Shown in pieces: positions 49 to 12,017 of a stretch of 64,000 nucleotides of DNA. How positions within the stretch are numbered: position 1 is the stretch's first letter; every line of letters starts with the position of its first letter. The translations under genes and the position numbers were made by a program. This DNA comes from Alphaproteobacteria bacterium (lineage in GTDB: Bacteria > Pseudomonadota > Alphaproteobacteria > MPNO01 > UBA830), in assembly GCA_022822405.1 (NCBI GenBank), contig JAJEBT010000169.1:1-64000 (forward strand), in the 5' to 3' direction. A model generated the notes under the pieces. It did not search any database and was not told the DNA's origin. It saw only the letters and a program-made list of their open reading frames with translations.

Positions 49-2415
49 ATGCCCAAGGATCACGGAATCGGTGCCAGCTCAAAGCGCCGCGAAGATGTCC
101 GCTTCCTCACGGGGACCGGCAACTACACCGACGACATCCACGTTCACGGCCACGCCCACGTGCACTTCCTGAGATCGGAGGTCGCGCACGGGACCCTGAA
201 CTCGGTCGACGTTTCCAGGGCCGAAGCCATGCCCGGCGTCGTCCGGGTCTTCACCGGCGACGACTTCGCCGAGGTCGGCGGCCTGCCCTGCGGCTGGCAG
301 GTGACCGACCGCCACGGCGAACCGATGAAGGAGCCGGGCCATCCGGTGCTTGCCCGGGGCAAGGTGCGCCATGTCGGCGATCCGATCGCCGCTGTGGTGG
401 CGGACACGCCGGCCCAGGCGCGCGACGCCGCCGAGGCGATCGCGGTCGACATCGAGGAACTGCCGGCCGTGATCGACATGAAGGCAGCAGCAGCCGGCGG
501 AGCGCTGGTCCATGACGAGATCGGCACCAACCTCTGCTACGACTGGGGCTTCGTCGAGGAAAACCGCGAGGCGGTCGACGAGGCGATCCGCAACGCCCAT
601 CACGTCACCACCCTGGAACTGGCAAACAACCGCCTGGTTCCCAACGCGATGGAACCGCGCGTCGCGATCGGCGACTACAACGCCGCAACTGACGAATCGA
701 CACTGTACACGACGTCGCAGAATCCCCATGTCATCCGCCTCCTGATGGGCGCCTTCGTTCTCGGCCTGCCGGAACACAAGCTCCGGGTCGTCGCTCCCGA
801 TGTCGGCGGCGGGTTCGGCTCCAAGATCTTTCACTATGCGGAGGAGGCATTCTGCACCTTCGCGGCCCGGACCATCAGGCGGCCGGTGAAGTGGACTGCA
901 AGCCGATCGGAGTCCTTCGTCACCGACGCGCACGGGCGCGACCACGTGACGAAGATCGAGCTCGCGCTCGACGCCGACGGCCGCTTTCTCGCCATCCGCA
1001 CCGACACCCATGCCAATCTCGGCGCGTATCTCTCGACCTTCGCGCCATCGGTGCCGACCTGGCTGCACGGGACGCTGATGGCCGGCAACTATCTGACGCC
1101 GCTGATCTACGTGAACGTCAAGGCGGTCTTCACCAACACGGTGCCGGTCGACGCCTATCGCGGCGCGGGCCGCCCCGAGGCGACCTTCCAGCTCGAGCGG
1201 GTGATCGACAAGGCGGCCCGCGAGATGGGGATCAGCCCGGTCGAGATCCGCCGGCGGAACTTCGTCAAGGCCGACCAGTTCCCCTACGCGACACCGGTCG
1301 CGCTCGAGTACGATACCGGCGACTACCACGCCACGATGGACAAGCTGGTCGAGATCGCCGATCTCGACGGGTTCGAGGCGCGGCTCAAGGAGTCCAGCGC
1401 CCGGGGCAAGCTTCGCGGCCTCGGGGTCAACGCCTATATCGAGGCCTGCGGCATCGCGCCGTCCAATCTCGTCGGCCAACTCGGCGCCCGCGCGGGCCTC
1501 TATGAGAGCGCGACGGTGCGGGTCAACGCGACGGGCTCGGTGACGGTGCTCACCGGCTGCCACTCGCACGGCCAAGGCCACGAGACGACGTTCCCGCAGG
1601 TGATCTCGGAGATGCTCGGGATCGCGGAGGACCAGGTCAACGTCGTCCACGGCGACACGGCGAACACTCCGATGGGCATGGGCACCTACGGATCGCGGTC
1701 GATCGCGGTCGGCGGCGCCGCCATGGTCCGGGCCACGGAGAAGATCATTGCCAAGGCTCGCAAGATTGCCGCTCATCTTCTTGAGGCGGATGAAGCCGAC
1801 ATCGAATTCTCGGACGGCAACTTCACGGTTGCCGGCACCGACCAGTCGGTGGCATGGGGCGATGTCTGCCTGACGGCCTACGTTCCCCACAACTATCCGC
1901 TCGAGGAACTCGAGCCGGGGCTGGAAGAGACCGCATTCTACGACCCCGCCAACTTCACCTTCCCCGCCGGCTGCTACGCCTGCGAGGTCGAGGTCGATCC
2001 GCAGACCGGCAAGGTCGACATCTGCGCGTTCACCGCCACCGACGATTTCGGCAACATCATCAACCCGATGATCGTCGACGGTCAGGTTCACGGCGGAATC
2101 GCCCAGGGGGTCGGCCAAGCGATGCTTGAGAACACGGTCTATGACGACAACGGGCAACTGCTGTCGGGTTCGTTCATGGACTACGCGATGCCGCGGGCCA
2201 GGGATCTGCCGCAACTCGTGGTAGACCATTCCTCCAAGACGCCCTGCAGCCACAACTCGCTCGGCGTCAAGGGATGTGGCGAAGCGGGCGCCATTGGCTC
2301 GCCTCCGGCAGTGGTCAACGCCGTCATCGACGCGCTGGCCCGTGGCGGCCACTCCGTGGACCATATCGACATGCCGGTCAGCCCCGCTCGGGTCTGGGCA
2401 GCCATCGACGGCTAG
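49..2415 (+). CDS. Molybdopterin-binding large subunit, CoxL-like (form II)
   Basis: The 788-residue product is the catalytic large chain of a xanthine dehydrogenase / aerobic CO-dehydrogenase-like molybdenum hydroxylase, a cytoplasmic enzyme that hydroxylates a substrate with water and passes electrons to FAD and FeS subunits. The N-terminal ald_xan_dh domain starts with SSKRREDVRFLTGTGNYTDD. The active-site loop reads AYRGAGR (about residues 369-375), the form II signature, rather than AYxCSFR of true CO dehydrogenase, so CO is unlikely to be the substrate. The C-terminal GVKGCGEAGAIGSP motif carries the catalytic Glu region. Length is normal. AGGAGGGA precedes ATG 49. The FAD subunit follows 52 bp later; the 2Fe-2S subunit is not downstream and may lie just left of the window, where a frame ends with TGA at 16-18. 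The substrate cannot be read from sequence. Confidence 0.92.
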   Translation: MPKDHGIGASSKRREDVRFLTGTGNYTDDIHVHGHAHVHFLRSEVAHGTLNSVDVSRAEAMPGVVRVFTGDDFAEVGGLPCGWQVTDRHGEPMKEPGHPVLARGKVRHVGDPIAAVVADTPAQARDAAEAIAVDIEELPAVIDMKAAAAGGALVHDEIGTNLCYDWGFVEENREAVDEAIRNAHHVTTLELANNRLVPNAMEPRVAIGDYNAATDESTLYTTSQNPHVIRLLMGAFVLGLPEHKLRVVAPDVGGGFGSKIFHYAEEAFCTFAARTIRRPVKWTASRSESFVTDAHGRDHVTKIELALDADGRFLAIRTDTHANLGAYLSTFAPSVPTWLHGTLMAGNYLTPLIYVNVKAVFTNTVPVDAYRGAGRPEATFQLERVIDKAAREMGISPVEIRRRNFVKADQFPYATPVALEYDTGDYHATMDKLVEIADLDGFEARLKESSARGKLRGLGVNAYIEACGIAPSNLVGQLGARAGLYESATVRVNATGSVTVLTGCHSHGQGHETTFPQVISEMLGIAEDQVNVVHGDTANTPMGMGTYGSRSIAVGGAAMVRATEKIIAKARKIAAHLLEADEADIEFSDGNFTVAGTDQSVAWGDVCLTAYVPHNYPLEELEPGLEETAFYDPANFTFPAGCYACEVEVDPQTGKVDICAFTATDDFGNIINPMIVDGQVHGGIAQGVGQAMLENTVYDDNGQLLSGSFMDYAMPRARDLPQLVVDHSSKTPCSHNSLGVKGCGEAGAIGSPPAVVNAVIDALARGGHSVDHIDMPVSPARVWAAIDG

Positions 2416-2467
2416 CACCCGGTACCGCTACCGCGCTGTTCCGGGAGCGGCCATCAAGGAGGTGGAA

Positions 2468-3262
2468 ATGTACGATTTCGAATATGTGCGCCCCAAAACG
2501 CTCGCCGACGCCGTCGCGGCCGTGGCCGACGATGGCGCGCAGCCGATCGGCGGTGGCCAGACCCTGATCCCGACGCTGAAGAGCCGGCTGGCCAGCCCCA
2601 CCCGGCTGGTGTCGCTGTCCGCGATACCGGAACTGCGCGGCGTCTCGACCAGCGCCGACGGCGCCATCCGCATCGGTGGCGCGACAGTCCATGCCGAGGT
2701 AGCCCGTGACACGGCCGCATCGTTTCCTGCCCTAGCCAGCCTCGCCGCAAAAATCGGCGATCCGGCAGTCCGCAACATGGGTACCATCGGCGGCAGCCTC
2801 GCCAACAACGATCCGTCGGCATGCTATCCGGCGGCCGCCCTGGCTAGCAATGCCACGATCAGAACCAACCGTCGCGAGATTTCCGCTGATGACTTCTTTT
2901 GCGGGTTTTTCGAGACGGCTCTCGATTCGGACGAGATCATCACGGAAGTGCTTTTCCCGGTCCCGGATGTGGCTGCCTACCAGAAATTCGAACAACCGGC
3001 TTCGCGTTTTGCGCTTGTGGGCGTGTTCGTCGCCAGATTCGGCGACTCGACACGCGTCGCGGTAACCGGTGCTTCGGAGAACGGCGTCTACCGATGGCGG
3101 GAAGCGGAAGCCGCGCTCGGGGAGTCTTTTTCCGACGCTTCGCTTGCATCGCTCGATGTCGACGCGGGCAGCATGATCAACGACCTGCACGGCCCGCCGC
3201 GCTACCGGGCGCATCTGGTCAAGGTGCTGAGCGGTCGTGCCGTGGCCGCAGCAGGTTCCTGA
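2468..3262 (+). CDS. FAD-binding subunit, CoxM-like
   Basis: The 264-residue medium chain of the same molybdenum hydroxylase as the preceding gene. It binds FAD through the PCMH fold: MYDFEYVRPKTLADAVA at the N-terminus, the pyrophosphate-binding GGGQTLIPTLK (about residues 28-38) and the second FAD motif NMGTIGGSLANNDPS (about 104-118) are intact, and the CO_deh_flav_C domain follows. The start was set at ATG 2468, after a strong AAGGAGGT 7 bp upstream; the longer frame to 2276 lies inside coxL. It is probably co-transcribed with the large subunit. No CoxD/E/F-type maturation genes follow. Confidence 0.9.
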   Translation: MYDFEYVRPKTLADAVAAVADDGAQPIGGGQTLIPTLKSRLASPTRLVSLSAIPELRGVSTSADGAIRIGGATVHAEVARDTAASFPALASLAAKIGDPAVRNMGTIGGSLANNDPSACYPAAALASNATIRTNRREISADDFFCGFFETALDSDEIITEVLFPVPDVAAYQKFEQPASRFALVGVFVARFGDSTRVAVTGASENGVYRWREAEAALGESFSDASLASLDVDAGSMINDLHGPPRYRAHLVKVLSGRAVAAAGS

Positions 3263-3652: not shown

Positions 3653-4846
3653 ATGGCTATTCAAAGTCCAGGCGGCCCGGGGGAACTGGTTGTGGAGGGT
3701 CTTCCTTCCGCATATGTCGATGGTTATGCCAGGGCGCGTGCCATCGATCCGGAGGCTGCCGACAATTACGTTCGTCATGCGACTATCGGCGATGCCGCAC
3801 TGGATCCGGTGATGGAAGATGTTTCCTCTCTTCCCCCGGACGAACTTCACGGATTCATCGCAGCGGGCCTCGAACAACACTCTGAAGGCCTGCGTGATGC
3901 GCCGGAGAGCTTGCGCGAGTTTTTCCTGAATCTCGAAGATCCTCCCTGGCTCGACCACGAGTCGTTTCGGCCGGGGGTCAGATCTTTCCATGCGCAGGTG
4001 GATCTGATGCTCGCCGCATTCGTCACGGGGGTTCTGGTGGAGGGCTTCTCGACCCTTATCGCCAAATCCTTCAGAATCACCGGGCGCGTCGCTGCGACGA
4101 CGAGGCGCCTCAAGCAGAACAACCGCCAATTGATGGAAATATTCTATCCGGGCGGGTTGCTTCGCGAAAACGACGGATGGAAGACATCCGTGCGGGTGCG
4201 CATCGTCCACGCCCGGGTAAGGCATCTGCTGGCAAACTCCGACGAATGGGACCACGAGGCCTGGGGCACGCCGGTCAGCGCAGCAAATTTGGGGCTTGCC
4301 ATCTCAGTCTTCTCCAAGCGCCTTCTGGACTACACGATGTTGCTGGGCGGCCGTTTCACTGCGGAGGAACATGCCAGCATCTTGAGTGTCTGGCGCTATG
4401 CCGGTTATCTCATGGGCATTCCGGAAACCCTGCTCTACACCGACGGCGCATCGGCGGACAAGATATACAAGATAGGGTTCATGTGTGAGCCGCGGCCGGA
4501 TGCGGATTCGGTAGCCATGGCGAATGCGCTGATCAGCTCCATTCCGAACGTGGCCAATATCTCCGACCCGGCCGAGAAGGAGAAAGTGCTGGCTCTGGCC
4601 TACAGGCTCTCGCGCGCGGTCCTCGGAAACGAACTCGCCGACATATATCAATATCCCCAGTCATCGAGGATCGGAACGCTGTTCCTGTTCCGGATGAAAC
4701 AGCAGATTCTGCGGTTCTTTAAGGCGGATTCCACGATCAGGGCCGGCAATTTCGATCAGATGCTCCAGATTGCCGCATACGAAGATGCGGGCTTGAGCTA
4801 CAAGCTGCCCAGCCACGCGAAGCAAGCGCTATCGAACCCCTGGTAA
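3653..4846 (+). CDS. Oxygenase MpaB family protein (DUF2236)
   Basis: The 397-residue protein belongs to the DUF2236 / MpaB / latex-clearing-protein family of b-type haem proteins, whose characterised bacterial members cleave or oxidise isoprenoid double bonds. Family features include the block FHAQVDLMLAAFVTGVLVEG (about residues 112-131), the GRVAATTRRL stretch (about 144-153) that matches the Arg/Thr region of Lcp, and VRIVHARVRHLL (about 182-193), where the haem-ligand His of Lcp is expected. No N-terminal signal is obvious, so a cytoplasmic or peripheral location is likely. TAGGTGA precedes ATG 3653. An RND exporter follows 137 bp downstream on the same strand. The family assignment is firm; the substrate is unknown. 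Confidence 0.82.
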   Translation: MAIQSPGGPGELVVEGLPSAYVDGYARARAIDPEAADNYVRHATIGDAALDPVMEDVSSLPPDELHGFIAAGLEQHSEGLRDAPESLREFFLNLEDPPWLDHESFRPGVRSFHAQVDLMLAAFVTGVLVEGFSTLIAKSFRITGRVAATTRRLKQNNRQLMEIFYPGGLLRENDGWKTSVRVRIVHARVRHLLANSDEWDHEAWGTPVSAANLGLAISVFSKRLLDYTMLLGGRFTAEEHASILSVWRYAGYLMGIPETLLYTDGASADKIYKIGFMCEPRPDADSVAMANALISSIPNVANISDPAEKEKVLALAYRLSRAVLGNELADIYQYPQSSRIGTLFLFRMKQQILRFFKADSTIRAGNFDQMLQIAAYEDAGLSYKLPSHAKQALSNPW

Positions 4847-4983
4847 GTGATGCCTACGTCACGGTTTGAGGCTGCGGGTCCGATGAAGGGACGCAGGAAA
4901 GCTGGTTATCCGGCACAGACATGCCTGCGGCAGGCCCTGTCGCAGGCGCCATGTCGTCGAGACATCTGCCAGGAGTCAAGGCC

Positions 4984-7275
4984 ATGACGACGACGCTGCT
5001 CGATCGATATACGTCTCTGATTCTGCGCTATCGATGGCCGGCTCTCCTGTCGGCGACACTGCTGATGCTGGCCTTGGCAGCTGGCGGAGACCTCGTCAAG
5101 GTCGCCAACGACTATCGCATCATGTTCGACGAGGACGACAGGCGGCTCAAGGCATTCGATGCGCTCGAGCAGACCTACACCAAATCCAACGTTGCGGTAA
5201 TCGCCATCGCGCCCGAGAAGGGCTCGGTGTTCACACGTAAAACGCTCGGCGCGATCGAGGACCTCACGGAAGCGGTGTGGAAGACGCCGCATTCGATACG
5301 GGTCGATTCCCTTACCAACTATGCACACAGCCGCGCGGATGGTGATGAATTGATCGTCGAGCCCTTGGTGGACGGTGCCGACGCGCTGAGTGATTCGGAT
5401 CTGGCGCGCATTGAAAAGATTGCGCTTCGCGAGAGCGACATCGTCGGCAGCCTGGTTTCTGCCGATGGGCGCACGGCAGGAGTCGTCGTCAACTTCCTGC
5501 TACCCGAAAACCCCGAATCCGAGGTCATCGAGATTACTGATTACCTCGATGCGCTTTTGGATTCGGCCCGGGCCAGCCACCCGGACATCGCATACCACAT
5601 ATCAGGTTTCGTCGTCATTAACCGCGCGTTCTTGGAGACGACGCAAAACGACATCGAGACATTCCTGCCGATCGCGCTTCTTGTCATCACCATCCTCTCA
5701 GTCGTTTTTCTGCGTTCGGTCCTGGGCGCTGTTGCCGTCATCGCGGTGCTGTTTTTCTCCGTCGCCAGCACGATGGGATTCGCGGGCTGGGCCGGCATAG
5801 TGTTTTCTCCGCCGAACGCCGGCGTACCACTCATTGTGATGACGGTCGCCGTCGCGGATTCCATCCACATAGTGACGAGCGTGCTTCAGGCAATGAGACG
5901 CGGTCTGGACAAGACAACAGCAATCGCCGAATCGATCCGAATCAATGCTTCACCGGTGTTCGTGACTTCTCTCACCACCGCGATCGGCTTCCTCAGCCTG
6001 AACGCGTCCGACGCACCCCCGTTCCATGTCCTGGGAAACTGTGTCGCGTTCGGCGTCCTGTGCGCCCTTGTCTTCTCTCTGTGGCTGCTGCCGGCATTGC
6101 TGGCGATTCTGCCGCTGCGCCCATCCTCGGCCGGGTTCCGGGGAGCCAAGACGCTTGACCGGTTGGCGGATTTCGTCATCGCCCGGCGCAAGATTCTGCT
6201 TTGGGCCTTTCCCGCCATGATCATCGTATTGGTAGCAGGCATCCCGCGTATCGAATTGGGCGACAACCTGACACGATTCTTCGACGAGAGCTACGAGATC
6301 CGGCGCGATTCGGACTTCATCGTCGCCAATCTGACCGGCCTGGACAAGCTCGAGTATTCCCTCGAAGCGGGCCGCGAGGGCGGAATTACCGACCCGGCAT
6401 ACCTGCGAAAGGTCGATGCCTTCGCTGCATGGTTCCGAAAGCAGCCGCAGGTCACCAATGTTCAGGCCTTTTCGGACCTCATGAAGCGGCTGAACAAGAA
6501 CCTGCATGGCGACGACCCGGCCTACTACCGGTTGCCGGACGATCCGGAACTCGCCGCGCAATATCTGTTGCTCTACGAACTGTCCTTGCCATTCGGACGC
6601 GACCTCAACGACCGCATCAATGTGGGCAAGTCCGCATCGCGAATGGTTGTCACGATCAGCGATGTGACATCCAGAGACATCAGGGAAATCAATAACCGGG
6701 CACAGGATTGGCTGCAGGCCAATGCGCCCGATTTTGCTCAGGAAGCATCCGGACTGACTATCATCGTGGCCTATATGACACAGCAGAACATCACGAGCAT
6801 GTTGACCGGCACGATCACCGCCATGGCGCTGATATCGCTCATCCTCATCGGCCTCTTCAGAAGCGTCACGATCGGCGTTCTTAGTCTTGTTCCCAATTTT
6901 GCCCCTGCTCTGATGACCTTCGGGCTGTGGGGATTCCTCGTTGGCCAAGTCGGCATTGCGTCATCGGTGATCATCGCCATTACTTTCGGAATTGTCGTGG
7001 ACGACACTGTTCACTTCCTGAGCAAGTTTCTGAAGGCACGTCGAGAGGGACACGACGCGCCTGAGGCCGTGCGCTACGCCTTTCGTACTGTCGGTCAAGC
7101 GTTGTGCACAACCACGGTGGTCCTGTCGTCCGGCTTTCTGGTGTTCGCTGCCTCGGGATTCGAAGTCAGCTGGGTCCTCGGCGTACTGGTCACAATCACT
7201 GCTGCCTTCGCACTGGCTGCCGACTTCCTGTTCCTGCCGGTGTTGCTCATGGCCTTCGACCGCGCACGAACTTGA
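4984..7275 (+). CDS. RND/MMPL-family transporter
   Basis: The 763-residue inner-membrane protein is a predicted RND-superfamily exporter (COG1033/MMPL type). It has one N-terminal membrane helix (about 19-36), a periplasmic loop, and two sterol-sensing/MMPL helix bundles (about residues 225-395 and 605-760). Charged residues sit in the proton-relay helices, for example VMTVAVADSIHIVTS in the first half and FGIVVDDTVHFLSKF in the second. The length, below 800 residues, suits lipid-exporting MMPL/HpnN-like proteins rather than AcrB pumps. ATG 4984 was preferred over 4921 because AGGAG lies 8 bp before it. No membrane-fusion or outer-membrane partner is nearby. The neighbouring MpaB-type oxygenase suggests export of an oxidised lipid or terpenoid, which is inference. 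Confidence 0.85.
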   Translation: MTTTLLDRYTSLILRYRWPALLSATLLMLALAAGGDLVKVANDYRIMFDEDDRRLKAFDALEQTYTKSNVAVIAIAPEKGSVFTRKTLGAIEDLTEAVWKTPHSIRVDSLTNYAHSRADGDELIVEPLVDGADALSDSDLARIEKIALRESDIVGSLVSADGRTAGVVVNFLLPENPESEVIEITDYLDALLDSARASHPDIAYHISGFVVINRAFLETTQNDIETFLPIALLVITILSVVFLRSVLGAVAVIAVLFFSVASTMGFAGWAGIVFSPPNAGVPLIVMTVAVADSIHIVTSVLQAMRRGLDKTTAIAESIRINASPVFVTSLTTAIGFLSLNASDAPPFHVLGNCVAFGVLCALVFSLWLLPALLAILPLRPSSAGFRGAKTLDRLADFVIARRKILLWAFPAMIIVLVAGIPRIELGDNLTRFFDESYEIRRDSDFIVANLTGLDKLEYSLEAGREGGITDPAYLRKVDAFAAWFRKQPQVTNVQAFSDLMKRLNKNLHGDDPAYYRLPDDPELAAQYLLLYELSLPFGRDLNDRINVGKSASRMVVTISDVTSRDIREINNRAQDWLQANAPDFAQEASGLTIIVAYMTQQNITSMLTGTITAMALISLILIGLFRSVTIGVLSLVPNFAPALMTFGLWGFLVGQVGIASSVIIAITFGIVVDDTVHFLSKFLKARREGHDAPEAVRYAFRTVGQALCTTTVVLSSGFLVFAASGFEVSWVLGVLVTITAAFALAADFLFLPVLLMAFDRART

Positions 7276-7766
7276 TGCCGCACGCACAAGCGCAAAAAGC
7301 TGTTCGGCGACTCGCACGGCATCGTGCCAGCCGGCCGACTGGGAGGCGACCATCCCGGCACGAACGTCCTCACCATTGGCGCGGAAGTGGCTGGATTGAC
7401 GATACCCGAGAGACGGGGTCGATGGAAAACAGTCTGGTCGGAAAGATCGAGTTGTTCGATTGCATTGCCGTTTACGCCGATATCTTCGACAGCATGCCGG
7501 TTGCTGCAACACATGGGTCGCCGCAGAGCACGCTCGGCCATGCTGGCAGCGGGACCTCGGCCGAATGATCCTCGCCAACAGGGATCGATCTCGAAATCCT
7601 GAAATTCCACCTCCGAGCAGCGGAGGGTCTTCACGAATGGCGCAGGTTGGATAGTCGGCAAGATCAACCAGTCGCTGCCGATTTCTGTTTCAGACTGTCC
7701 AAGTCAGGTTTGATGGCACTCGTGGCGTCACCCTGCCCAGGAGCGGTTGCTGCGCGACGCACACGG
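7276..7766. other. 491-bp gap between convergent genes
   Basis: This lies between the RND transporter stop and the stop of the convergent flavoprotein gene. Small open frames on both strands have no recognisable domain and no good ribosome site. A short perfect hairpin, GCACG-GCAT-CGTGC at 7314-7327, lies 39 bp after the transporter stop but has no T-tract. I see nothing else. Confidence 0.4.
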
Positions 7767-9125
7767 TCACGCTTTGCGGAGACGCCGGCCATACATCACG
7801 CGACCGTAGAAATTGAACCACTTCCGCGCCTCCGGATCCTCGAACGGATAGTCCGCCCCAAGTTGTCGCGCGGTGACAAGGCCGGATACGAAACAGGTCT
7901 CTTGCGCGTTGATCAGGGTGTGGGCGCCGCAATGCCAGATCCGTCGCCGGCCCTGGACGAAACGGAACAGGTGGATCAGGAAGGCTATGTGGGATACGTC
8001 GTGCACGATGTGCTGGAACCACTGTCTCATGACGATCTTGCCCTCATCGATCGGACTGATCGGGTTGTACGTCACCAAGCAGGGCTTGTCCGACCGGTTC
8101 GCCCAGGGCTGCTGGTTATGCATGATGTAGGTGATTTCGTAATTGTCCGGCCTGGCACCATATTGCTCGATGTAGTTGCTCCGGGTGGAGAGCGGCCGGG
8201 TCTCGTTGTTCGGCAGGACCGAGGCGTCCGAGTGCACGATCGTGTGATTGTGCAGCTCGCTCTCGTAACGAATCGAGGAGAGCAACCAGCTCTCCAGAAA
8301 GGTCGGCTTGTCGAGGATCATCAGTGTCTGGTTCGCATTGCAGGCGAAGACCACATCGTCGAACGTCTCGGTCTTGCCGTCCTCGTCCTCGACGATGACT
8401 TCGGACCGACGCCGATAGACCTTTCGCACCGGACGACCGAGATGGATCTTGTCTCGAAACCCGGCCGATAGCGCTTCGTAGACGCGTCGCGTACCCCGGT
8501 CCCAAGTCTGCATCGGCGTCGCGGTCTCGATATCGAAGAACTCCAGATAGCGGGCAAACAGTGACGCCGGCATGTCGAACACGTTGGTTGCCATCAGGAA
8601 GTTGACGAACATCGGCTTCAGGATCATGTAGCGGAAATCGCCCGAAAACCTGCCGAGATTGAGAACCGTGCCCATGCTGACATAGTTGTACGGGTTGAGC
8701 GCGTTGAGCAGCCGGGACCGCGACCGGTTGAGGCGACCGAATCGCTTTAACCGTCTCAAGAGCTTCTGGAATTTCTCGATTTCGGGTTGCAGTTGCCGCC
8801 TTATGTCGGAGTCGAAATCGTGCGCGTAGATACCGCCACCATACCTCACACTGTAGCTGAACCTTGTATCGACCACGTCGATACCGTGTTGTCGCATCAA
8901 GAGCAGAACGTGTTGATAGACCGAGGGAATGCATGCCGTGACGGAGATATCGAACGGAATGGCGGTTCCATCGTCCTGCGGCATGTCGGCGGTAACCGCG
9001 TTGCCGCCGATCCGGTCGGCTGCTTCAAAGACGCAAAAATCAAACCTGTCGGGATGCCTGTTCAGCGCCCAGGCCACCCCAAGTCCCGATACCCCCGCGC
9101 CGATAATCGCAATCCGTCTCGACAT
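7767..9125 (-). CDS. FAD-dependent oxidoreductase (COG2907-like)
   Basis: The 452-residue protein is a flavin amine-oxidase-type NAD/FAD-binding protein. The Rossmann motif IAIIGAGVSGLGVAWALN (residues 5-22) and the following FEAADRIGGNA (about 33-43) bind FAD. The body matches the COG2907 group, which in other bacteria often sits beside cyclopropane-fatty-acid synthase-like and DUF1365 genes, so a lipid substrate is plausible. The C-terminal block around HCGAHTLINAQE is typical. ATG 9125 follows GGGAAG with about 7 bp spacing. It is convergent with the MpaB oxygenase / RND pair, so it is not in their operon, but its presumed lipid chemistry fits them. The actual reaction is unknown. Confidence 0.82.
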   Translation of the reverse strand: MSRRIAIIGAGVSGLGVAWALNRHPDRFDFCVFEAADRIGGNAVTADMPQDDGTAIPFDISVTACIPSVYQHVLLLMRQHGIDVVDTRFSYSVRYGGGIYAHDFDSDIRRQLQPEIEKFQKLLRRLKRFGRLNRSRSRLLNALNPYNYVSMGTVLNLGRFSGDFRYMILKPMFVNFLMATNVFDMPASLFARYLEFFDIETATPMQTWDRGTRRVYEALSAGFRDKIHLGRPVRKVYRRRSEVIVEDEDGKTETFDDVVFACNANQTLMILDKPTFLESWLLSSIRYESELHNHTIVHSDASVLPNNETRPLSTRSNYIEQYGARPDNYEITYIMHNQQPWANRSDKPCLVTYNPISPIDEGKIVMRQWFQHIVHDVSHIAFLIHLFRFVQGRRRIWHCGAHTLINAQETCFVSGLVTARQLGADYPFEDPEARKWFNFYGRVMYGRRLRKA

Positions 9126-9602: not shown

Positions 9603-12017
9603 CTATGCGGCGCGGCCGCTTCCCGTCCTTGCCGCGCCGGCAGCGCCTACGGCCGAATCCCTTGTCTCCCAGTCGACCCCCTTGGCATGCAGCGTCGCGC
9701 GCGGGGCATCCACGGATCCCGGCCTTGCCTGCTCCATCAGGTCTTCGACCTGCGATCGTTCACGCTCGAATTCCCGAAACGCGGCAAACTGCCCAGCACG
9801 GTACTGTTCCGGCCAGACCACCTCCTCGACGCCGTAATAGGCCGCAGCCTGCATCGTGAAATACGGGTTGTAGAGGTGGGTGCGGGCCAGCGCTACGAGA
9901 TCGGCTCGCCCGGCGGCGATTATGGTGTTTACCTGGTCCCAGGTGAAGATATTGCCGGCGACCACTGTCGGAATACCTGCCTCTATACGGATGCGTTCCG
10001 AAAACGGCGTCTGGAACATGCGTCCGTAGACGGGCCTTTCCGCGGGATCGGTCTGCCCGGTGGACACGTTGATCAGGTCACAGCCATGTATGGCGAAAGC
10101 ACGCGCAAACGCGACCGCGTCCTCGCCCGTCGTGCCCCCTTCCATCCAGTCCGTAGCCGATATCCGGACCGACATCGGGCGCCCTTCCGGCCATACCGCC
10201 CTGCAGGCGTCAAAGACCTCAAGCGGATAACGCAGGCGGTTTTCGACGCTGCCGCCATAGTCGTCGGTCCGGCGATTGGTCCAGGGAGACAGGAAGGAGG
10301 CAAGCAGGTAGCCGTGCGCGCAATGCAGTTCCAGGTGATCAAATCCGGCAGCAGCAGCCCGTTCGGCTGCGGCGACGAAATCCGCCTTCACCGCATCCAT
10401 GTCGGTCCGCGACATTTCCCGCGGCACCTGTGAGCCTTCGAGATAGGGAACGGGCGATGCGGAGATGATGTCCCAACCGCCTTCGTCAAGCGGCTGGTCG
10501 ATGCCGTCCCAGGCGAGCTTTGTCGCACCCTTGCGGCCGGCATGGCCAATTTGAATCGCCAGCCTCGCATCGGTCCGCGCATGCACGAAGGCGGTGATCC
10601 GCTCCCAGCCGGCAGCCTGTGCGTCATTCCAGATGCCAGCGCAGCCGAGGGTGATGCGCCCGTCGGCGCTCACGCACGCCATCTCGGTAAAGATCAGGCC
10701 CGCACCGCCAATGGCCCGGCTCGCGAGGTGAACGTGGTGCCAGTCGTCGGGCAAACCATCGACCGCACTGTACTGGCACATCGGAGAGACAACCACGCGG
10801 TTGGCAAGGCGCATGTCGCGAAGCTGCAGCGGCGCGAACATCGGCGGCATCGGCCTTGCCCCGCCTCCGCCGTGGCGTTCCGCAGCGTCGTTCGAGAACC
10901 ACTGATCGACCTCGTCGACAAAACCACCGTCACGCAGGCGGAGATTGTCGTAGGTAATCGCCTTCGAGCGTGACAGCAGGCTGAAGGTGAACTGGATCGG
11001 ATCCATGTCCCGATAACGCTCGACATGCTCGAACCATGACAGCGACACGTCGGCCGCATGCTGGAGGCGCTCAACCTCGCCGCGACGGGTGGCGCTGTAG
11101 TCGGCGAGAATATCGGCGACTGTGCCGGGTTTCTGGAAGCATTCGAACAGCGCTATCGCGTCTTCCATCGCCAGTTTCGTACCCGAGCCGATGGAGAAAT
11201 GCGCGGTATGCGCGGCATCTCCAATCAGCACAAGATTGTCGCGAACCCAGTTCTCGCACCGGATCATCGGGAAGTTGCGCCAGATCGAGCGGTTGGCGAT
11301 GACCTCGTAGCCGTCAAGGAAGTCCTCGTAGAGTCGGGCAACATACGCCACCGTGTCCGCTTCGGTAGTATCCGCGAGGCCCGCCTTTCGCCAAGTGTCC
11401 TCGGTGGTTTCGACAATCCATGTACTCATCTCATCGTTGTACTGGTAGGCGTGCAGATTCCAGATGCCGGCATCGTTTTCACGAAAATCAAACGTGAACG
11501 CGTCAAGCGGACGGGTCGTGCCAAGCCATACGAACTTGTTCGGCCGCCAGTCGAAACTCGGCCTGAAATGCTCGGCATAACGGTCGCGAATCCAGGAGTT
11601 GATTCCGTTGGCGGCAACTATCAGATCTGCATCGCCCGAGACCTGGTCGAGCGAAGTGATCTCGCGCTCGAACTCGAACTCCACCCCGACCTCGCGGCAG
11701 CGGTCCTGAAGCAGGAGAAGCATGTCTTTGCGCGACATGCCGCAGAAGCCATGCCCGCCCGAATCGATTCTCTCCCCCTTGAAGTAGGTGTGAATGCTGT
11801 CCCAATGAGCGAACGACCGGTGGATCCGATCATACGAGACGGGATCGTACCCACGAAAATGCCCGAGGGTCTCGGCCGAGAACACGATTCCGAACCCGAA
11901 CGTGTCGTCGGGTCGGTTCTGCTCGTAAATCCTGATCCGATGTCCGGGATCCGCCTTCTTCATCAGCAGGGCGAAATAAAGACCTGCCGGACCGCCACCG
12001 ATGACCTCGATCTTCAT
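9603..12017 (-). CDS. Fused FAD monooxygenase / OYE-like reductase (salicylyl-CoA 5-hydroxylase / 2-aminobenzoyl-CoA monooxygenase-reductase type)
   Basis: The 804-residue protein joins two flavoenzymes. Residues 1 to about 380 form a class A FAD monooxygenase with GGGPAGLYFALL (7-18) and the second FAD motif GDAAHTAHFSIGSGT (266-280). From about 393 it is an old-yellow-enzyme-like FMN TIM barrel, with SPMCQYSAVDG (411-421) and HCAHGYLLASF. This architecture is that of 2-aminobenzoyl-CoA monooxygenase/reductase of Azoarcus and of the bifunctional salicylyl-CoA 5-hydroxylases. Members hydroxylate, and in the aminobenzoyl case also reduce, an aromatic CoA thioester in the cytoplasm. GGAGAGC precedes ATG 12017. 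The promoter overlaps a palindrome (12068-12095). An acyl-CoA ligase at 22836-24332 could supply the thioester. Which substrate is used is not settled. Confidence 0.9.
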   Translation of the reverse strand: MKIEVIGGGPAGLYFALLMKKADPGHRIRIYEQNRPDDTFGFGIVFSAETLGHFRGYDPVSYDRIHRSFAHWDSIHTYFKGERIDSGGHGFCGMSRKDMLLLLQDRCREVGVEFEFEREITSLDQVSGDADLIVAANGINSWIRDRYAEHFRPSFDWRPNKFVWLGTTRPLDAFTFDFRENDAGIWNLHAYQYNDEMSTWIVETTEDTWRKAGLADTTEADTVAYVARLYEDFLDGYEVIANRSIWRNFPMIRCENWVRDNLVLIGDAAHTAHFSIGSGTKLAMEDAIALFECFQKPGTVADILADYSATRRGEVERLQHAADVSLSWFEHVERYRDMDPIQFTFSLLSRSKAITYDNLRLRDGGFVDEVDQWFSNDAAERHGGGGARPMPPMFAPLQLRDMRLANRVVVSPMCQYSAVDGLPDDWHHVHLASRAIGGAGLIFTEMACVSADGRITLGCAGIWNDAQAAGWERITAFVHARTDARLAIQIGHAGRKGATKLAWDGIDQPLDEGGWDIISASPVPYLEGSQVPREMSRTDMDAVKADFVAAAERAAAAGFDHLELHCAHGYLLASFLSPWTNRRTDDYGGSVENRLRYPLEVFDACRAVWPEGRPMSVRISATDWMEGGTTGEDAVAFARAFAIHGCDLINVSTGQTDPAERPVYGRMFQTPFSERIRIEAGIPTVVAGNIFTWDQVNTIIAAGRADLVALARTHLYNPYFTMQAAAYYGVEEVVWPEQYRAGQFAAFREFERERSQVEDLMEQARPGSVDAPRATLHAKGVDWETRDSAVGAAGAARTGSGRAA

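Follow-up and report, generated by a model that had tools for sequence, protein, structure and literature searches.

A gene set common to unrelated bacteria probably provides for the synthesis of squalene, its oxidation and its transfer to the cell surface. Two of its genes, encoding an MpaB/Lcp-type haem oxygenase and an MMPL/RND exporter, lie side by side near one end of the window, by which we mean the whole 64,000-nt stretch analyzed here (contig JAJEBT010000169.1 of assembly GCA_022822405.1, from an alphaproteobacterium). On balance, we favor the view that this pair contributes the oxygenase and the pump to a system for oxidising and exporting squalene, for which we infer the substrate (squalene), its cleavage, the direction of transport and the product.

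The oxygenase and the exporter form a conserved pair

A first-pass annotation of the window had described a DUF2236/MpaB haem oxygenase and an MMPL exporter on one strand, with a flavoprotein converging on them. All three genes were recovered where it had placed them (Table 1), with the oxygenase and the exporter indeed on the same strand and the oxygenase above its Pfam cut-off. About 137 bp separate the oxygenase stop codon from the exporter start at 4984. This start is likelier than one at 4921, since it is where the alignment of 20 relatives opens, at an invariant Met.

The adjacency also proved to be kept across genomes. One scan of genome contigs gave 40 named MpaB loci (46–73% identity), all of them in metagenome-assembled genomes (MAGs), from Binatia, Acidobacteria, Nitrospira, Gemmatimonadetes, Proteobacteria, Chloroflexi and Actinomycetes. 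Together with loci from order-mates, class members and Binatia relatives and with paralogues, they make up a set of 76, in 71 of which there is at least 600 bp of room downstream of MpaB. An MMPL gene directly follows MpaB on the same strand, at a distance of <600 bp, in 33 of the 76 loci, spanning at least five phyla, and any MMPL gene lies within 6 kb in 39, diverged paralogue pairs included. For the named loci alone, MMPL was directly downstream in 18 and near in 19. Diverged MpaB paralogues (38–47% identity) are likewise found near MMPL paralogues. Since the gene order recurs in 33 of 76 loci, the MpaB–MMPL pair is real and beyond chance, and it very probably constitutes a functional unit.

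Longer operons add a carrier, a barrel and squalene genes

In full operons, as delineated by neighbor clustering and Pfam, MpaB and MMPL are followed by a LolA-like carrier (LolA_like, PF17131) and an outer-membrane barrel. The latter bears a weak likeness to DUF1302, and its structural model, with ∼18 strands after a signal helix, matches porins and AlgE; these model matches are of a general porin-like kind and name no function. The exporter had been described in the first-pass annotation as having no outer-membrane partner, which holds within the window but not for the system, as the LolA-like carrier and the barrel follow the pair in many relatives and are also present on another contig (C63) of the window's own genome.

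The most complete arrangement was found in six Binatia genomes, where DXS-MpaB-MMPL-LolA-barrel and then, on the opposite strand, IspH-HpnE-HpnD-HpnC occupy one locus; a seventh Binatia genome has the squalene/export cluster with MpaB divergent from the remainder. Other squalene-linked forms occur in Bryobacterales (L014), an alphaproteobacterium (L026) and Immundisolibacterales (L041). Further variants are MpaB-LolA-OMP-FPPS-SQS-IspH-IspG in Poriferisulfidus TsSOB (L027; OMP, outer-membrane protein; FPPS, farnesyl diphosphate synthase; SQS, squalene synthase), MpaB-MMPL-SQS-OMP in genome G411 (L114), MpaB near HpnCDE with no MMPL (L122), and a short Gemmatimonadetes contig with IspH as its only isoprenoid gene (L019). 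Altogether, isoprenoid genes were present in 12 of the 40 named loci and 18 of all 76, compared with none of 20 arbitrary 20-kb control windows from two genomes.

On two short contigs (L118 and L120), LolA is cut at the left end and LolA-barrel precede MpaB-MMPL, corresponding to either tandem copies or a circular assembly. Two Acidobacteria carry, besides a typical MpaB, a diverged paralogue (40% identity) that is convergent with a squalene/phytoene synthase gene (L028:4527-5780 and L031:3621-4874).

We surveyed PF13243, which covers the C-terminal domain of squalene-hopene and oxidosqualene cyclases. None of the seven cluster-bearing Binatia genomes, among them a single 4.2-Mb chromosome, yielded this domain, nor did the genome of the Immundisolibacterales locus (G044). 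Squalene epoxidase (PF08491) was absent from three of the four cluster-bearing Binatia genomes tested (G027, G031 and G811), again including a single 4.2-Mb chromosome. In cyclase-less cluster genomes, the HpnCDE route naturally ends with acyclic squalene, and the MpaB enzyme is the sole recognized oxygenase among the clustered genes. As the pair is linked to HpnC, HpnD, HpnE, DXS, FPPS and IspH, and as these seven Binatia genomes show no cyclase, the lipid is likely to be acyclic squalene and not a hopanoid. Of the oxidation and export of an isoprenoid or hopanoid suggested in the first-pass annotation, the isoprenoid part thus remains the best reading, whereas a hopanoid cargo is less likely, although PF13243 was present in 21 of 28 MpaB genomes and in 3 of 12 of a second set (two genomes being common to both).

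The window's own genome appears to hold the whole set

In the genome from which the window derives (G000), the pair lies on contig C60 and the LolA homologue on contig C63, which holds IDI-2, HpnC, LolA, the barrel, HpnE, HpnD, DXS and FPPS together. IDI-2, HpnC, HpnD, HpnE and FPPS all score above the NCBIfam curated cut-offs (in bits, score/cut-off: HpnC 275.1/250.45, HpnD 304.5/278.6, HpnE 406.1/283.05). The LolA-like protein matches PF17131 with 212.8 bits and DUF1329 with 27.7 bits (cut-off 23.1), and the barrel scores 22.1 bits for DUF1302, just under the cut-off (23.2). The tetranucleotide make-up of C63 correlates with that of the window at r = 0.955, equal to the value for two parts of C60. 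The organism therefore appears to hold the entire set in two pieces, C60 and C63.

A second set in the same genome, on contig C78 (L085), comprises LolA, barrel, a Trp-halogenase-like flavoprotein and MMPL on one strand, which suggests export of another lipid, perhaps a halogenated one. An MpaB paralogue on contig C87 has no MMPL, LolA, barrel or squalene genes near it.

The oxygenase has a predicted Lcp-like fold and a conserved putative haem site

We modeled the oxygenase on an alignment of 29 of 47 MpaB sequences (sequences that were nearly identical, repeated entries for one gene and a single incomplete sequence were omitted), giving a predicted structure with a mean predicted local distance difference test score of 85.9. 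The nearest solved fold was Lcp (Foldseek E 9.3e-9; Z 32.1 over 338 residues, 3.3 Å), followed by t-anethole oxygenase (8s1j; Z 18.9, 249 residues), with the next match at Z 3.5. Lcp was also the sole match in a sequence-profile comparison (E 4e-17), whose alignment placed R152, R183, H186 and R190 of the oxygenase opposite R164, R195, H198 and R202 of Lcp. Each of these four residues is invariant in all 74 oxygenase relatives. In Lcp, H198 is the proximal haem ligand (PMC6311187), and R195 and R202 are described as structurally important (PMC5522427). By this correspondence, H186 would be the proximal ligand of a haem-binding enzyme, and the conserved haem ligand anticipated in the first-pass annotation is present. 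In contrast to the proximal site, the Lcp distal residues K167 and T168 are replaced by Q155 and N156 in 72 of the 74 relatives, and by H and S in the other two. No hydrophobic stretch or signal peptide was detected at the N-terminus by simple hydropathy, the sole peak being at residues 118–137; the oxygenase should therefore be cytosolic, unlike Lcp. Judged by sequence and predicted structure, it is a distinct subfamily of a known fold.

The flavoprotein belongs to a different neighborhood

The third gene, converging on the pair, encodes a flavoprotein whose best solved relative is LkcE (6f7l, E 2.7e-23), with 2b9w second. It is 84–86% identical to its counterparts in four order-mates and 75–86% identical in Binatia, Nitrospira, Acidobacteria, Chloroflexi and others (86% to Binatia G027). 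Thus, its identity across phyla is as high as to order-mates, a striking instance of sharing, and it is more alike across phyla than either MpaB or MMPL. As a candidate third gene of the MpaB cluster it was rejected, with no match in the 40 named loci nor in the later MpaB loci scanned.

In 12 neighborhoods of the flavoprotein, we instead found a fusion of a GPP34 (Golgi phosphoprotein 3-like) domain to a cytochrome P450 near nine (for example L178:6913-8946 and L187:8010-10598), a KshA-type Rieske oxygenase near seven, MMPL near five and LolA near three. The nearest solved structures were CYP51 for the P450 part and KshA for the Rieske protein. L178 and L180 have consecutive genes for MMPL, LolA and the flavoprotein, all in one orientation, and MMPL adjoins the flavoprotein in G031; one of the five neighboring MMPLs (L183) is only 20% identical to that of the window. 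In a Nitrospira locus (L185), the flavoprotein lies among genes for a squalene epoxidase-cyclase fusion, P450, Rieske and sterol methyltransferase proteins. The fusion, at L185:4139-7601 (G029:C16), has the epoxidase and cyclase domains in one 1154-aa frame and is, by its domains, a fused epoxidase-oxidosqualene cyclase; similar frames occur in G003 and G038. Because of its MMPL/LolA and sterol-gene neighbors elsewhere, the flavoprotein belongs to a sterol-type set using the same kind of exporter. Its grouping with the pair in the first-pass annotation is thus borne out as a convergent position in the window, but it stands beside MpaB in no other MpaB locus read and is found elsewhere with MMPL/LolA paralogues and sterol-modifying genes. 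Its position in the window is suggestive, but it falls outside the MpaB cluster.

Relation to known systems

Known members of the MPAB_Lcp_cat family attack alkenes or isoprenoids (PMC6311187, PMC12724181). With Lcp (LcpK30, 5o1l/5o1m) and other family members, such as fungal MpaB, Gordonia Nro1 and t-anethole oxygenase (8s1j), the window oxygenase shares the fold, PF09995 and the haem-site Arg/His residues. It differs from Lcp, which is secreted, in having no signal peptide and in its Q/N for K167/T168, and enzymes of its type are encoded with genes for squalene synthesis and export, not for the use of outside rubber.

The exporter gave its best NCBIfam match to the HAE3 RND profile TIGR00921, with 154.7 bits against a curated cut-off of 351.9, and would work like an HAE3 RND while scoring below the level set for the family. 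A similar pump forms part of AmeABCD of Castellaniella defragrans, described as an HAE3 RND, a DUF1302 outer-membrane protein, a LolA/DUF1329 protein and AmeC, the deletion of which lowers monoterpene tolerance (PMC6394551). Like AmeABCD, the window-type system pairs an HAE3-like RND with a periplasmic protein of the LolA/DUF1329 kind and with an outer-membrane protein, whose likeness to DUF1302 is weak, and its probable cargo is also an isoprenoid; the comparison, also that with AmeD, is one of make-up. The clustered loci show no additional conserved gene among those for MMPL, LolA and barrel, such as one for a second, AmeC-like periplasmic protein, and the window-type exporter, unlike AmeABCD, is joined to an oxygenase and squalene synthesis. 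The hopanoid transporter HpnN is likewise an MMPL/HAE3-like pump in a triterpenoid context, with partial profile matches to the window exporter (TIGR03480, 77 bits, cut-off 751.85; NF052374, 19.8 against 1100). However, HpnN reportedly functions with neither a carrier nor a barrel (PMC6394551), both of which accompany the window-type exporter, and the cluster-bearing Binatia show no cyclase.

Steroid gene clusters (CSGs), described as widespread in symbionts of Ircinia sponges, likewise consist of triterpenoid genes that sponge bacteria of many phyla have in common and that show signs of having been transferred (PMC9531527). Their core is ERG24-CYP51-LSS, and section 14 of that article does not mention MpaB, MMPL or LolA. 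Titles and abstract openings of the open-licence literature yielded nothing that linked an MpaB-family gene to squalene genes and an MMPL exporter, nor anything on MpaB in sponge symbionts.

A proposed route for squalene and its alternatives

In the proposed route, DXS, IspH, IDI-2 and FPPS, representing the methylerythritol phosphate pathway and chain building, would feed HpnC, HpnD and HpnE to give squalene. With O2, the cytosolic MpaB-like haem enzyme would then act on one of squalene's isoprenoid C=C bonds, most likely cleaving it to an aldehyde or ketone, as Lcp and MpaB do, or else oxygenating it. From the inner membrane, the MMPL pump may remove either the resulting, more polar lipid or squalene as such; the LolA-like protein would ferry the lipid across the periplasm, and the barrel would pass it through, or set it in, the outer membrane. 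In its most specific form, which we put forward tentatively and consider possible rather than probable, a transferable set present in many phyla, largely of sponge bacteria, makes acyclic squalene, cuts it with a hitherto unrecognized MpaB/Lcp subfamily (R-x2-QN) and exports nor-squalene aldehydes or ketones via a dedicated MMPL-LolA-barrel route. If true, there would be a class of exported, non-cyclised triterpenoids that could serve the outer envelope or contact with the sponge, and the set would suggest a lipid trait exchanged among phyla. The proposal names a definite substrate and enzyme along with an export path from end to end, and it would join three loose ends, namely bacterial enzymes of the MpaB family that have no known substrate, HAE3/MMPL pumps that have no known cargo and the presence of squalene genes where no cyclase is seen.

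Several observations weigh against squalene oxidation and export. No MMPL was found within 6 kb of MpaB in 37 of the 76 loci, mainly those of Holophagales/Acidobacteria, Chloroflexi and several class members; in Acidobacteria, an AcrB-type RND, in some cases also HlyD proteins, takes the place of MMPL. These loci are related, so that the counts over the 76 are not independent trials. In Nitrospira and most Gammaproteobacteria, the pair is present but no squalene genes lie close to it. With the distal lysine and threonine of Lcp replaced, the chemistry may differ from that of Lcp. Squalene would have another fate in Binatia G030, where squalene epoxidase is present, as well as other fates in the window's own genome, given the squalene epoxidase, cyclase and P450 relative on contig C7. 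Finally, binning errors are possible in a MAG such as G000 (contamination 6.23%).

The C7 genes, with a P450 relative of the GPP34-P450 kind, would also fit an oxygenase whose substrate is a sterol or another cyclised triterpenoid, attacked for example at the delta-24 side-chain double bond, with the pump exporting or placing the sterol. The delta-24 sterol side chain has the same dimethylallyl end as squalene. This alternative, which we regard as unlikely, would be in keeping with the sterol-type neighbors of the flavoprotein (GPP34-P450 in 9 of 12 loci, KshA-type Rieske in 7 of 12, sterol methyltransferases and the L185 fusion) and with the spread of CSGs in Ircinia symbionts (PMC9531527). 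However, those genes cluster with the flavoprotein and not with MpaB, and the MpaB cluster occurs in seven Binatia genomes without a detectable cyclase, one of them a complete chromosome.

The make-up shared with AmeABCD, whose loss lowers monoterpene tolerance (PMC6394551), could instead point to the tolerance or degradation of outside isoprenoids such as host sterols or terpenes, the oxygenase starting their breakdown and the HAE3-like pump expelling the apolar compound. In keeping with this, the remaining genes at the same end of the window are catabolic, but the genes linked in Binatia, Immundisolibacterales and the window's own genome are biosynthetic (DXS, FPPS, HpnCDE), and we rate it as rather improbable. 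Less credence still is given to a pump exporting unmodified squalene, with the oxygenase hydroxylating or epoxidising some minor lipid or removing surplus squalene. The exporter need not be accompanied by MpaB, because neither the C78 set nor that of G048 (SQS, LolA, barrel and MMPL) has MpaB beside it, and the distal pocket does differ from that of Lcp; yet MpaB paralogues with as little as 38–47% identity still keep their MMPL neighbor.

Spread of the oxygenase

Within the window's class, MpaB relatives (38–63% identity) were present in 15 other genomes among 384. A sample of 397 other genomes from the phylum had none. A tree of 35 of the 47 MpaB sequences, with omissions of the same kinds as for the model, groups the window oxygenase with two gammaproteobacteria (100/99). 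Sequences from order-mates join those of Chloroflexi and an actinomycete (87/92), the latter two being interleaved. As the window oxygenase is ∼60–67% identical to those of other phyla versus 45–48% to order-mates, gene transfer is suggested, a pattern that paralogy or binning errors can mimic.

Eight of the 40 named loci bear jk18x labels, corresponding to a Caribbean Ircinia set, and two such labels occur in PMC9531527. The database record of L027 names a sponge. The labels SB06xx, COS, RHO, APA, CO36xxx and p16x are presumably sponge series too, an assumption that does not extend to L017, L019, L026 and L052. Many loci thus come from sponge samples, and we make no claim that the gene set is exclusive to them.

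Genes of the window

The genes flanking the oxygenase–exporter pair apparently belong to aromatic catabolism and bear no relation to it (Table 1). An amidohydrolase and a Usp protein are encoded at the same end of the window.

Table 1. Features at one end of the window
Feature	Position	Strand	Remarks
MpaB/Lcp-type haem oxygenase	3653..4846	+	397 aa; PF09995 (MPAB_Lcp_cat) 71.4 bits, gathering cut-off 23
MMPL/RND (HAE3-like) lipid exporter	4984..7275	+	PF03176 96.3 bits; 763 aa (784 aa if from 4921)
Flavin amine-oxidase-like protein (LkcE-like)	7767..9125	-	PF01593 (Amino_oxidase) 67 bits; convergent; loosely associated part
Molybdopterin dehydrogenase subunits	49-3262		Flank of the pair
Bifunctional salicylyl-CoA 5-hydroxylase/oxidoreductase-type gene	9603-12017		Other flank

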